Positions 26,314 through 31,105 of a stretch of DNA of 57,302 nt are shown here, one piece after another. Position numbers and translations under genes: made by a program. The notes under the pieces are model-generated. The model saw nothing but the letters and a program-made list of their open reading frames with translations. It did not search any database and was not told the origin of the DNA. Source of the DNA: Bdellovibrio sp. (GTDB lineage Bacteria; Bdellovibrionota; Bdellovibrionia; Bdellovibrionales; Bdellovibrionaceae); assembly GCA_014378765.1 (NCBI GenBank), contig JACMNA010000095.1:1-57302 (forward strand), written 5' to 3'. Numbering within the stretch: the first letter of the stretch is position 1; each line of letters begins with the position of its first letter.

Positions 26314-27087
26314 TTAAAAATTGAAACCTAAAATAGTGACGATGTCATAAATATCTCCGTCTAAACCTGGATTGATGGGATTAATATTATTTCCTTCGGC
26401 GCCAGTTTTAGGTTCAGGAATGCCATCTCGGTTTTCATCAGGAAATTGCACGTAGTGATACGTGGCTTGAATTCCTAAATAAGCTCGCCTGCGCATCAGT
26501 GGAATTTCAATTCCCGCCCCAGCTTTAAAGCCGATGACTTGGTCAGGGGGTACTTCTAGCGAATTGTTGATATTATAAGTTCGAACGTACTGTCCCGCGC
26601 CCGCAAAAAGATACGGATTAAGATCAGCTAAACCTCGAGTAACATTTTCGGTATTGAAATAATATTTTAAGCTTAAGTCAATATTTTGAATGTTCACGGA
26701 ACCCGTATAAGAATTTGAAAAGGTTCGATCACTTTTGTAACTTGAAAAAGCGACATTGTTATCACTGACGCTGTAGCCAAGAGCCGCCGCAATTTGTAAA
26801 TCAAAGAAGTAACTAAATTGCACCCCATAAGTGGCCGTCGGCGAATAGCTTTGTGAAAAACCATTCGTGTAACCGCGGTAACCCAATAAAAAACCAAGCG
26901 TTAAGTAGCGGCCATTTTTAAAAAAATTAATGTCAGCTTCTTCTTCGGCGTCTTGTTCAAACTCGTTGTAATCTGAAAATGGATCAAACGCCTCATCGAC
27001 ATCTTCCTGTGCGCGAGCGTGCTGATGAAATAAGCTCGTCATCAGAACCAAAAGAATTAGAATTTTTTTTAATGATAAAACCTGCAC
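26314..27087 (-). CDS. Outer membrane beta-barrel protein
   Basis: A 257-residue secreted protein. Residues 1-26 form a signal peptide (basic KK, hydrophobic ILILLVLMTSLF, likely cleavage after ARA). An acidic linker follows (EDVDEAFDPFSDYNEFEQDAEEEAD), then alternating hydrophobic/aromatic strands typical of an 8-strand OmpA/OmpW-like barrel: TLGFLLGYRGY, TYGVQFSYFFDLQIAAALGYSV, NIDLSLKYYF, PYLFAGAGQYVRTY, VIGFKAGAGIEI, YLGIQATYHYVQF. It ends with an aromatic residue (ILGFNF), the usual recognition signal for barrel assembly. The function is unknown; it may be structural or a small porin. It is a lone gene divergent from the purine operon. Confidence 0.82.
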   Translation of the reverse strand: MQVLSLKKILILLVLMTSLFHQHARAQEDVDEAFDPFSDYNEFEQDAEEEADINFFKNGRYLTLGFLLGYRGYTNGFSQSYSPTATYGVQFSYFFDLQIAAALGYSVSDNNVAFSSYKSDRTFSNSYTGSVNIQNIDLSLKYYFNTENVTRGLADLNPYLFAGAGQYVRTYNINNSLEVPPDQVIGFKAGAGIEIPLMRRRAYLGIQATYHYVQFPDENRDGIPEPKTGAEGNNINPINPGLDGDIYDIVTILGFNF

Positions 27088-27230: not shown

Positions 27231-28295
27231 TTGATCGACTACAAAAAAAGTGGTGTCGACATTCAAGCTGGTGATGATTTGGTTTCATGGCTGCAGCAAC
27301 CAGCAGAAAAACCTCATCCGGGCGCCCATTCAAAATCTACAACTAGCGTTACACCTTCAATACTTAAAGTAAAATCTGATGTTCCCGATATAAAGTCGCG
27401 CGTGGTGTCTGGAATCGGTGGATTTGCCGCCTTATTCGATGGACGTTTTCAAAATATGCAAAAACCCCTTCTTATTTCGTGTACAGACGGAGTGGGAACA
27501 AAAGTAAAAGTGGCCAGCCACTTCGGTGATTTTTCTACCGTCGGCCAAGATTTAGTCGGAATGTGTGCTAACGACCTCATTTGCACGGGCGGAACTCCGC
27601 TTTTCTTCTTAGATTACTACGCCGTTGAAAAATTAAATTTAGAACACGCCCAAAGTTTTTTAACTAGCATTCGTAACGCCTGCGAACGATCGCACATGGT
27701 ATTGATCGGCGGCGAAACGGCGGAAATGCCAGGAGTTTATCAACCGGGTGATTTTGATTGCGCGGGTTTTTCAGTGGGCGTTGTCGATCAAGAAAAAATG
27801 TGGGGAGCCCACCGCGTACAAGCTAATGATGTGGTGATCGGTTTAGAAAGCTCGGGCTTTCACAGCAATGGTTTCTCTTTAATAAGAAAAGTATTTGCCG
27901 GTGAATTTGATAAATACCGTCAGTGGTTATTAGAGCCCACGCGGCTTTACGTTGAAGCTGCTTTGCATTTAAAAAATGATTTCGAAATTCATGCGGCCGC
28001 GCATATGACCGGCGGCGGAATCGATAATTTACCGCGCGTCTTGCCAGAACATTTGAAGGCCGTCTTAAACAAATGGGAATTGCCAGAGTGTTTTAGGGAA
28101 GTGCAGAAACGTTCGGGCCTGAGCGATCAAGCCATGCGTGAAACTTTCAATTGTGGCATTGGCCTTACGCTGATTGTGCCGGCGGGTAGTGAACTTAAAA
28201 TTATTGAAAAATTGCGTAGTTTAAATTATCCCGCGCAAGTCTTAGGAAAAATTACGTCGCGAATGCCAGAGGAGGCGCATGTCAGTTGGGTTTAG
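27231..28295 (+). CDS. purM: Phosphoribosylformylglycinamidine cyclo-ligase (AIR synthetase)
   Basis: PurM closes the imidazole ring to give aminoimidazole ribotide in purine synthesis. The 354-residue protein begins with the family start YKKSGVDIQAGDDLV and shows GIGGFAALFDG, SCTDGVGTKVKVA, GEMPG-type GGETAEMPGVYQ, SGFHSNGFSL and MTGGGIDNLPRVLP, all standard. The start codon is TTG at 27231, the only suitable one, preceded by GGGGGAT. It overlaps purN by 17 bases and opens a nine-gene purine run with almost no gaps. Confidence 0.97.
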   Translation: MIDYKKSGVDIQAGDDLVSWLQQPAEKPHPGAHSKSTTSVTPSILKVKSDVPDIKSRVVSGIGGFAALFDGRFQNMQKPLLISCTDGVGTKVKVASHFGDFSTVGQDLVGMCANDLICTGGTPLFFLDYYAVEKLNLEHAQSFLTSIRNACERSHMVLIGGETAEMPGVYQPGDFDCAGFSVGVVDQEKMWGAHRVQANDVVIGLESSGFHSNGFSLIRKVFAGEFDKYRQWLLEPTRLYVEAALHLKNDFEIHAAAHMTGGGIDNLPRVLPEHLKAVLNKWELPECFREVQKRSGLSDQAMRETFNCGIGLTLIVPAGSELKIIEKLRSLNYPAQVLGKITSRMPEEAHVSWV

Positions 28296-28833
28296 AAAAC
28301 CAGTTCGTGTTGCGGTTTTCATTTCGGGCGGCGGCTCGACCCTTCAGGCTTTATTAGAGATGCACCATCAGTTTGAAATCGCGCTTGTCGTCAGTAATCG
28401 AAAAAATGCGCCGGGCCTATTGAAGGCTCGCCGCTTTGGAAAACCGATATTTGTTCAAGCAAAAGATTTTAGTTTCGATGAGCTTACTAAAAAATTAAAA
28501 TCTTTTGGCATTGAGCGCATAATTTTAGCCGGTTACATGAAAATTGTGCCGGCGAATTTTGTTGAACAGTGGAAATTTAAAATTTTAAATATTCATCCTA
28601 GTTTGCTTCCGAATTTACCCGGATTGAATGCGGCCGAGCGTAGTTATGCAGCGGGCGGTCCAATGGGCGTTTCAATTCACTTTGTTACGGCCGAAATGGA
28701 TGCCGGGCCGTTGTTTCTACAACAAACCAGTTTAGCTGATGCGCGCTCACTCTCAATCGGTGAAGCTGAGATTTTTTTACGCCGGACCGAACAGCACTTG
28801 CTACGCGAAATGGTATTGAGGTCAGTCGCATGA
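28279..28833 (+). CDS. purN: Phosphoribosylglycinamide formyltransferase
   Basis: PurN transfers a formyl group from 10-formyltetrahydrofolate to GAR. The protein starts with VRVAVFISGGGSTLQALLE (phosphate-binding loop), and carries the catalytic cluster as N-x-H in LNIHPSLLPNLPG and the Asp in TAEMDAGPLFLQQ, together with the HFVT segment. At 184 residues it is shorter than the common 200-215 because the C-terminal helix region is reduced. It overlaps purM by 17 bases and the next, unknown gene by 4. Confidence 0.95.
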   Translation: MSVGFRKPVRVAVFISGGGSTLQALLEMHHQFEIALVVSNRKNAPGLLKARRFGKPIFVQAKDFSFDELTKKLKSFGIERIILAGYMKIVPANFVEQWKFKILNIHPSLLPNLPGLNAAERSYAAGGPMGVSIHFVTAEMDAGPLFLQQTSLADARSLSIGEAEIFLRRTEQHLLREMVLRSVA

Positions 28834-29816
28834 AATTAGCTTATGTTGGCTACGACCAAAATGTTTTACGATCGAGTGCGGTGCTTGCTGATATCTTTGC
28901 TGAAATTGAATTCTTTTTAATTGAGCCTGATCGTGCCCCCCTTCAGCAAGTTTTTGACGAGTTACCAATACTAACTCATCCGCACTGCATTCCGGCCGAA
29001 AAAGAATATCAAACTGAACATCACGCTTACGCTTTGCAAGAAATTAAGAAGCAGTATGGGCATTTTAAATGGCACTTGCTTAATGAGATGAAAAAGCTGA
29101 AGGAAATGAAAACAAAAAAAGGCGAACTTGCGAAGCCTGCACGCGCCGTTAATTCGGCCAGTACTTTTAAGGTCAGTGCCTTTAAAGAGGTGCGGGATAT
29201 ATTTTTTGATTCTAGAAAGCAAAAGGCCGTATTCGAAAAAGTATCGCAAGGGATTAACGAATATGATTACGTGATTTTTGAAAATCACCAATTGGTGGCG
29301 AGCGTGCTAAAGCAATCGGGAATAAAAGTATTTAGCTCGGCACCCCTGCATTCACACCTTTGGTATTCGATTGAATTTACCTATCAAAAAAATACGCCGC
29401 ATATTGGACTTTTACCCGAGCGTAGCTTTCTACTGGTCAAAGACCGCCAATATGAAACGCTAGTCGACAATTGGTATGGCTGCCACGCACGGCAAGATAC
29501 TTTTACCGTGCAACAGTGGGTTCCGATAAATCAATATCAAAACTTAGACTATATGAAATTTATGTTAGAGCGTACGCGCGACGAGCTTTCAAGAAAATTA
29601 GACTTTATTGAATTACTAGAATTTAAAAAGTCTTACGTGCAGACTTCGGCCGGCTATCGCCAACAATTGGGAACCCTAAAAAATAATAAGTTGTCGGCCG
29701 TACTTCCTTCATTTGCATTTTGGTCGCAAGCGCAAATTGATCAAACCATCACTTACTTAATGGAGCCTAAAATTAAAAAATTAGATAAAATTCAATTGCA
29801 GCGGGGCTTAGCGTGA
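28830..29816 (+). CDS. Unknown protein embedded in the purine operon
   Basis: A 328-residue soluble protein I cannot assign. It starts MKLAYVGYDQNVLRSSAVLADIF, a strand-helix pattern that could open a Rossmann-like domain but lacks a clear glycine-rich loop. A lysine-rich helix follows at about 90-120 (KKLKEMKTKKGELAKPARAV), then IFENHQLVASVLKQSGIKVFSSAPLHSHLWY, GLLPERSFLLVKDRQY, and a C-terminal helical region. There is no signal peptide or membrane span. The start overlaps purN by 4 bases (ATGA) and the end overlaps purB by 4 (GTGA), so its production is tied to the pathway. It does not look like PurD, PurH, PurE or PurK, the purine enzymes missing from this run. Confidence 0.85.
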   Translation: MKLAYVGYDQNVLRSSAVLADIFAEIEFFLIEPDRAPLQQVFDELPILTHPHCIPAEKEYQTEHHAYALQEIKKQYGHFKWHLLNEMKKLKEMKTKKGELAKPARAVNSASTFKVSAFKEVRDIFFDSRKQKAVFEKVSQGINEYDYVIFENHQLVASVLKQSGIKVFSSAPLHSHLWYSIEFTYQKNTPHIGLLPERSFLLVKDRQYETLVDNWYGCHARQDTFTVQQWVPINQYQNLDYMKFMLERTRDELSRKLDFIELLEFKKSYVQTSAGYRQQLGTLKNNKLSAVLPSFAFWSQAQIDQTITYLMEPKIKKLDKIQLQRGLA

Positions 29817-31105
29817 TTGCGCGTTATTCGACTGAAAAAATGTCGGCCCTGTTTGCCCTCGAAAGCCGTTTTGAATTTATGAAACAAGTTGAAATTGAGT
29901 GTGCCCTCGTGCAAGCCGATATGGGTCTTATTCCCAAAAAAGCAGCGCTTGATATAAAAAAGAAATCAAAATTTCAACTGGCTCGTATCTTAGAAATTGA
30001 AAAGACGACCAAACATGATGTGATCGCGTTTGTTTCTAACTTGGCCGAAAATGTCGGACCTAGCGGAAGATATATTCATTACGGACTGACTAGCTCTGAC
30101 GTTTTAGATACCGCTTTAAGTTTACAGATTAATGAGGGCCTTGAAGTTTTAAAAGTCAGCGTTGTTCAATTGCAAAAAACTTTAATCAAAAAAATTAATG
30201 AACACAAAGGAACGATTTGCGCGGGCCGGACCCACGGAATCTACGCGGAGATCACCACTTTTGGTTTTAAATTGGCCGGCTACTTAGAAGAATTGAAAAG
30301 AAATACTATACGTGTTGAACGGGCTCAGGCTGGCATCCAAATTTGTAAGCTGAGTGGCGCGGTGGGAACATCGTCAGCTTTGCCAATAGACTTCGAAGCG
30401 AAAGTCGCGAAAAATTTAAAATTAAAAGTTGAGCCCTTTGCCACGCAAGTCATTCCGCGTGATCGACACGCCGAGGTTCTTTTAAGTTTGGCTTTATTAA
30501 CAACTGGCTACGAAAGGTTGGCGGTTGAACTTCGTCACCTGCAACGCAGCGAAGTTTCGGAAGTAATCGAGGGCTTTACGCCCGGCCAAAAAGGCTCATC
30601 GGCTATGCCTCATAAGAAAAACCCCATCAGCGCCGAAAATATAACGGGCCTAGCGCGCCTCATGCGCAGTTACTCGCAAGCAGCTTTAGAAAATATAAGC
30701 TTGTGGCATGAGCGCGATATTAGTCATTCATCGGTCGAGCGCGTGATTTTGCCCGATGCCTTTCAGCTGGCGCATTATATGACTTTACGACTTAATGATT
30801 TGATCGCGGGATTATTTGTCGACAAAGAAAAAATGCTAGCGAATACGCAGTTATTGGGCGGCGTATTGTATTCTTCTCATTTACTGCTTCATTTAGTCGA
30901 AAAGAAAAATAAAACGCGCGAAGACGCTTACATGTTGGTACAAAGACTTTCGCATGGACTTAAAGGTAACGAACATTTAAGTCAGGCCATTCAAAAAGAT
31001 AGCGAAGCTAAAAAATTATTTAGTCAGAAAGAATTAGACGAAATATTTTCAGGGCAAAAGCATCTGAAATCAATTCAAGGTCGGCTTGCAAAATACTTAA
31101 GTTAG
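29813..31105 (+). CDS. purB: Adenylosuccinate lyase
   Basis: PurB removes fumarate from SAICAR and from adenylosuccinate. The 430-residue protein carries the fumarase/aspartase superfamily signature GSSAMPHKKNP (261-271) with the catalytic serine, a conserved histidine at RTHG (H141) and the SSDVLDTA segment near 94-101. The start is a GTG overlapping the preceding stop. The C-terminal part (LKGNEHLSQAI, SGQKHLKSIQGRLAKYL) resembles the short PurB branch of Bacillus and Thermotoga. It is followed by purC after 7 bases. Confidence 0.97.
   Translation: MIARYSTEKMSALFALESRFEFMKQVEIECALVQADMGLIPKKAALDIKKKSKFQLARILEIEKTTKHDVIAFVSNLAENVGPSGRYIHYGLTSSDVLDTALSLQINEGLEVLKVSVVQLQKTLIKKINEHKGTICAGRTHGIYAEITTFGFKLAGYLEELKRNTIRVERAQAGIQICKLSGAVGTSSALPIDFEAKVAKNLKLKVEPFATQVIPRDRHAEVLLSLALLTTGYERLAVELRHLQRSEVSEVIEGFTPGQKGSSAMPHKKNPISAENITGLARLMRSYSQAALENISLWHERDISHSSVERVILPDAFQLAHYMTLRLNDLIAGLFVDKEKMLANTQLLGGVLYSSHLLLHLVEKKNKTREDAYMLVQRLSHGLKGNEHLSQAIQKDSEAKKLFSQKELDEIFSGQKHLKSIQGRLAKYLS

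Follow-up and report, generated by a model that had tools for sequence, protein, structure and literature searches.

The window, by which we mean the whole stretch of DNA analysed (57,302 nucleotides, contig JACMNA010000095.1 of assembly GCA_014378765.1), carries on its plus strand an unnamed gene at 28830-29816, an ORF of 328 aa with an ATG start. It is packed between two purine genes: purN lies upstream (28279-28833, +; PF00551, E 2e-34), and purB, which encodes adenylosuccinate lyase and is the conserved partner of the unnamed gene, follows downstream (29813-31105, +; PF00206, E 1e-45; PF10397, E 1e-10; TIGR00928 over cut-off). The ORF shares 4 bp with each neighbour, its start overlapping the purN stop as ATGA (28830-28833, +) and its stop overlapping the purB start as GTGA (29813-29816, +). 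Both overlaps had been given in a preliminary description of this DNA and are exact, and the identities it assigned to the flanking genes hold. Its statement that the product is no known purine enzyme also agrees with our searches: the protein has no sequence match in Pfam, NCBIfam or the PDB, and among the Pfam and NCBIfam models none of the purine-enzyme families, PurD, PurE, PurK and PurH included, matches it. In the window genome, purH is found at G000:C7.

Judged by its conservation, the unnamed gene is a real coding sequence, since 10 other genomes of the window genus carry orthologs and dN/dS is about 0.13 in one ortholog pair. That pair (L010/L011, both of the window genus; dN 0.21, dS 1.57) shows purifying selection at the codon level, and all of the genus orthologs found are open frames free of internal stops. 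The longest ORF on the opposite strand inside the gene has 106 aa. The gene has changed far more rapidly than the two beside it: identity with the nearest relative is 44%, against 61% for purN and 80% for purB. Literature searches, with supplementary tables outside their scope, found no description of this purB-upstream gene, and the curated protein-family libraries searched hold no model for what is a class-wide protein of predatory bacteria.

The window also contains a divergent outer-membrane-protein-like gene at 26314-27087 (-). It recurs beside the locus across the class (L091, L092, L095, L096, L104), and its motif resembles DPFxDYxEFE...DINFFRNGR.

An orthologous family upstream of purB

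Single-sequence searches with the window protein gave matches at 18-44% identity in 10 of 13 further genomes of its genus, and nothing outside that genus or in the PDB. A profile of the window genus (A1) reached other genera of the same family at E about 1e-4, each of these matches being an ORF of 426-438 aa placed directly 5' of purB. When the window-genus alignment was compared with long-form alignments using hhalign (probability 95, E 4e-8), the segment alignable to the long orthologs was a core of codons 105-263 (29142-29618, +). A profile built only from the other genera recovered the short forms in return (E 9e-11 to 7e-7). From these profile, profile-profile and reciprocal matches it follows that the window protein is a shortened ortholog. 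The median length is 319 aa in the window genus and 433 aa elsewhere, the window genus being without the mid-protein region and shorter by about 100 residues.

Profiles place the family in 130 of the 144 genomes of the class Bdellovibrionia, 119 of them detected with a 22-sequence profile (A3) and 11, all of the window genus, with A1. None of the 225 other genomes of the phylum matches the 22-sequence profile, and all of the named loci that carry the family belong to Bdellovibrionota. Two genomes, G023 and G028, are missed by A3, yet they carry diverged copies (L093, L094). These comparisons show that the window protein belongs to one orthologous family which, within the phylum, is found only in the class Bdellovibrionia. 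Its copy number is nearly always one per genome; in B. bacteriovorus strain kdesi, a second, C-terminal fragment was seen at L084 5010-5480, apart from the main copy.

Several other matches were discarded. Distant ones in other classes (G317, G305) are not taken as orthologs, as they adjoin a KDO-transferase-like gene and not purB, and a match in G219 is a canonical-looking desaturase-like flavoprotein. Low-scoring Pfam matches (ANAPC9, CDC50, MCM6_C and others) are inconsistent between members and were set aside as chance. Separately, a related and diverged FAD-fold-like protein was seen after a KDO-transferase-like gene in another class (in its family f22), at L196 2278-3483 and L197 1514-2758.

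The position of the gene is nearly constant. Within the window genus, purB lies directly 3' in nine of nine orthologs (from 10 further genomes) whose contig extends that far. Across the class, the gene shares contig and strand with purB in 121 of the 130 family-bearing genomes and ends no more than 500 bp upstream of it in 118 of those 121; the three exceptions are G129 and G130, where genes intervene, and G099, where the profile match is partial. In the named loci, the overlap between the gene and purB is mostly 4 bp. The preliminary description had proposed a neighbourhood survey of whether the gene always sits between purN and purB: the purB side stands, while on the other side the gene is directly 5' of purB in L003, L010 and L011 of the window genus though purM and purN are not upstream. 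We define the family as the purB-linked family of the class Bdellovibrionia, to which the window protein belongs both by adjacency upstream of purB and by profile homology.

This linkage has its breaks. In G131 the gene follows purM, and purB is on another contig. At least three genomes (G007, G009, G048), whose loci L091, L092 and L095 were read directly, have no copy 5' of purB, and PurB must therefore work without the gene there. In the other classes sampled, the place before purB is taken by unrelated genes, some of which overlap it by 4 bp, so adjacency alone can lack functional meaning. As a side observation, four loci of other classes (L168, L169, L171, L172) have a glycosyltransferase-like ORF directly 5' of purB, for example 'LFHPCQLPPKDYGGVERVVLWL' in L169; in three of these loci it overlaps purB by 4 bp.

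Predicted fold and fate of the FAD motifs

AlphaFold2 models were confident both for the window protein (pLDDT 82.8, pTM 0.83) and for the full-length ortholog of B. bacteriovorus strain kdesi (pLDDT 90.2). With the window model, Foldseek returned flavin halogenases, PPOX and renalase (probability 1.00, best E 4e-7), and with the B. bacteriovorus model it returned NicA2 and related amine oxidases (best E 1e-14). When aligned with VIA-align, the B. bacteriovorus ortholog gave Z 18.2 against 4rep (rmsd 4.2, 390 residues aligned), 18.1 against phytoene desaturase, about 17 against PPOX and 15 against Rab-GDI. For the window protein, Z was 11.1 against 4rep (rmsd 4.3, 285 aligned) and about 10 against sarcosine and glycine oxidases. 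The two models indicate that the window protein and its full-length ortholog share an FAD-oxidoreductase fold of amine oxidase / PPOX / phytoene desaturase type; the prediction thus places the family in the two-domain amine-oxidase/PPOX (GR2) type, the long form with Z 17-18 and the window form with Z 11. The unnamed gene is therefore a diverged, shortened member of a Bdellovibrionia purB-linked family with this predicted fold, and the protein is not truly an orphan.

The fold is predicted to match that of the flavin amine oxidase / PPOX / phytoene desaturase group (NicA2, 2ivd/3nks, 4rep, 5mog) over nearly the whole of the long form, but sequence identity between the solved structures and the purB-linked family is only about 5-14%. 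Searching the PDB with the profiles A1, A2, A3 and A5 yielded no match that could be used. For the window protein and the A2 members, no curated FAD family is reached at cut-off in Pfam or NCBIfam either, and the same holds in Pfam for the A1 and A3 members.

The family also departs from the group in its cofactor motifs. Among the 115 distinct sequences of the family, two retain a GxGxxG within the first 60 residues. Both come from f11, an outgroup family of the class, whose profile joins the rest of the family (hhalign, A3 vs A5, E 2.5e-26). One of these outgroup members, L101, keeps 'VICGSGFRGLWLASELVKIGWSVTWI' at its N-terminus and is the one member with a weak N-terminal match to an FAD family model, PF01266 DAO at E 7e-5, its 23.0 bits being below the cut-off of 27.9; the ancestral motif reads 'VICGSGFRGLWLASEL' in it. 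Outside f11 the GxGxxG is replaced, commonly by SAFGRGHWLA in the order and in some genera by GSFYNVGWVA; the window genus has neither. In the window protein, codons 1-35 (28830-28934, +; 'MKLAYVGYDQNVLRSSAVLADIFAEIEFFLIEPDR') are modelled as a beta-alpha-beta (Rossmann) unit, with a strand at residues 2-7, a helix at 10-20 and a strand at 25-30, and the GxGxxG is absent from this N-terminal stretch. The C-terminal FAD motif with its G-D/E is altered even in the outgroup, where GGP or AGP is found instead, and it has no equivalent in the window protein, whose model ends in a helix (codons 300-327, 29727-29810, +). From this pattern in the sequences, we infer that the ancestor probably bound FAD, and that most living members, the window protein included, no longer do so in the usual way. 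The graded series from the GxGxxG-bearing outgroup to motif-less, shortened forms lends itself to the study of cofactor loss in an enzyme fold.

The protein might nevertheless still be an enzyme, one that holds FAD or some other ligand in a non-canonical pocket and acts on a purine-related or unrelated metabolite. Members of the fold family are mostly enzymes, the GxGxxG is kept in the outgroup, and the long forms have strongly conserved EGPFGFF, PWTHEN, W-x-W-x-R and IPxxQRF motifs that could form a ligand site. We regard this reading as rather unlikely, given the loss of GxGxxG from nearly all members, the alteration of the C-terminal FAD motif even in the outgroup, and the loss of EGPFGFF and PWTHEN from the window genus. 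A single Asn of these two motifs is excepted: Asn214 of the window protein, in the DNW of codons 213-215 (29466-29474, +; invariant columns of A1 and A4), aligns with the Asn of the long-form PWTHEN, which alone is invariant when long and short forms are aligned together.

The link to PurB and possible roles

The surroundings of the pair vary across the class. In the genus Bdellovibrio, the gene and purB come after era-der-nss with no purM/N/C/Q/L in the fetched neighbourhood, and purH is located elsewhere together with a purL of a different type (about 1013 aa). Two genomes of the window genus (G005, G013) have the same pattern, with purL and purH elsewhere. The occurrence of a different-type purL with purH away from purB suggests that the ancestral purine operon was replaced. 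The gene and purB are both present in G002 (a complete genome), G102 and G103, which have neither purL nor purH. In G007, purB is kept, and purL, purH and the unnamed gene are all without a match; in G048 purL and purH are present and the unnamed gene is absent. Because the pair persists where purL and purH are missing, or where purL is of a different type and lies elsewhere, purB is what the gene is linked to, not the whole pathway, and a tie to de novo purine synthesis is rejected.

These results bear on what the preliminary description had made of the gene. It had held that the synthesis of the protein is locked to the pathway; by the overlaps its synthesis does look coupled, but the tie is to purB. 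Nor does the lock make the gene indispensable, as the three genomes without a copy upstream of purB testify. Its argument that retention in the operon speaks for a real role has gained strength, with a position conserved far beyond the window genome and purifying selection in the pair compared. It had named clear homology to a known family unrelated to purines, with a scattered location in relatives, as grounds for doubt: a known fold was indeed found, and the location proved to be fixed.

Because the gene keeps a near-constant place before purB, also in genomes that have lost or exchanged most of the purine pathway, an accessory role tied to PurB is the reading we tentatively favour: it is quite possible, from sequence and gene order, that the product works without a cofactor, is co-translated with PurB and serves it as an accessory protein. 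A flavin-binding ancestor of the oxidase fold would have lost FAD binding in most family members, and translational coupling would make the cofactor-free protein together with PurB. It could then act on PurB itself (on its assembly, stability or activity), or bind the substrate or product of PurB. The working principle would be comparable to that of the Rab GDP-dissociation inhibitor (Rab-GDI), which has a like overall fold (the predicted long form matches it with Z 15) and works as a binding protein, not as an oxidase. Rab-GDI differs in being eukaryotic and in binding Rab GTPases, and its likeness to the purB-linked protein is one of fold alone. A regulatory or scaffold role of the window protein is possible. 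Against an accessory role stand the weak sequence constraint, unusual for a subunit on so conserved an enzyme, the genomes in which the gene is missing upstream of purB or removed from it (G129, G130, G131), and the unrelated genes that fill the slot in other classes.

The gene may instead have no functional tie to PurB, an inherited operon order being kept since it supplies purB with a promoter or with translational coupling. The unrelated genes in the same slot elsewhere, some with the same overlap, are in its favour, as is G131, where the gene has remained after purM. The E. coli hflD-purB operon likewise has a gene of another family directly 5' of purB, a likeness of gene position alone, and in a fosfomycin study the phenotype of the hflD deletion arose through polarity on purB (PMC11963563), which counts against an accessory role as well. 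The precedents thus pull both ways, Rab-GDI showing the fold as a binding protein and hflD a phenotype that is only polar on purB. Since the pair has stayed where it was when the other genes of the purine operon left, we consider the absence of any tie unlikely. It is most improbable that in the window genus the gene is in decay and has little function left: its shortening by about 100 residues against the 433 aa median elsewhere, its very fast divergence and its absence from three purB loci would fit, but the frames found in the genus are intact, dN/dS is low in the pair compared and the model is confident.

If the accessory reading holds, the survival of the gene beside purB, once the other purine operon genes were lost or replaced, suggests a lineage-specific partner for the PurB step, the conversion of IMP to AMP that is needed also for salvage from prey. 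A bolder and doubtful version is that a retired flavoenzyme has become, class-wide, a dedicated partner of adenylosuccinate lyase: cofactor-free, GDI-like and translated in step with PurB, it would control how the lyase assembles or how active it is between salvage and de novo use; even lineages that take their purines from prey would keep it.

The different type of purL (about 1000 aa), lying near purH and apart from purB, was also observed in G018, G036, G060-G063, G066, G070, G071, G073, G077, G079 (genus Bdellovibrio), G005, G009, G013 and G025.
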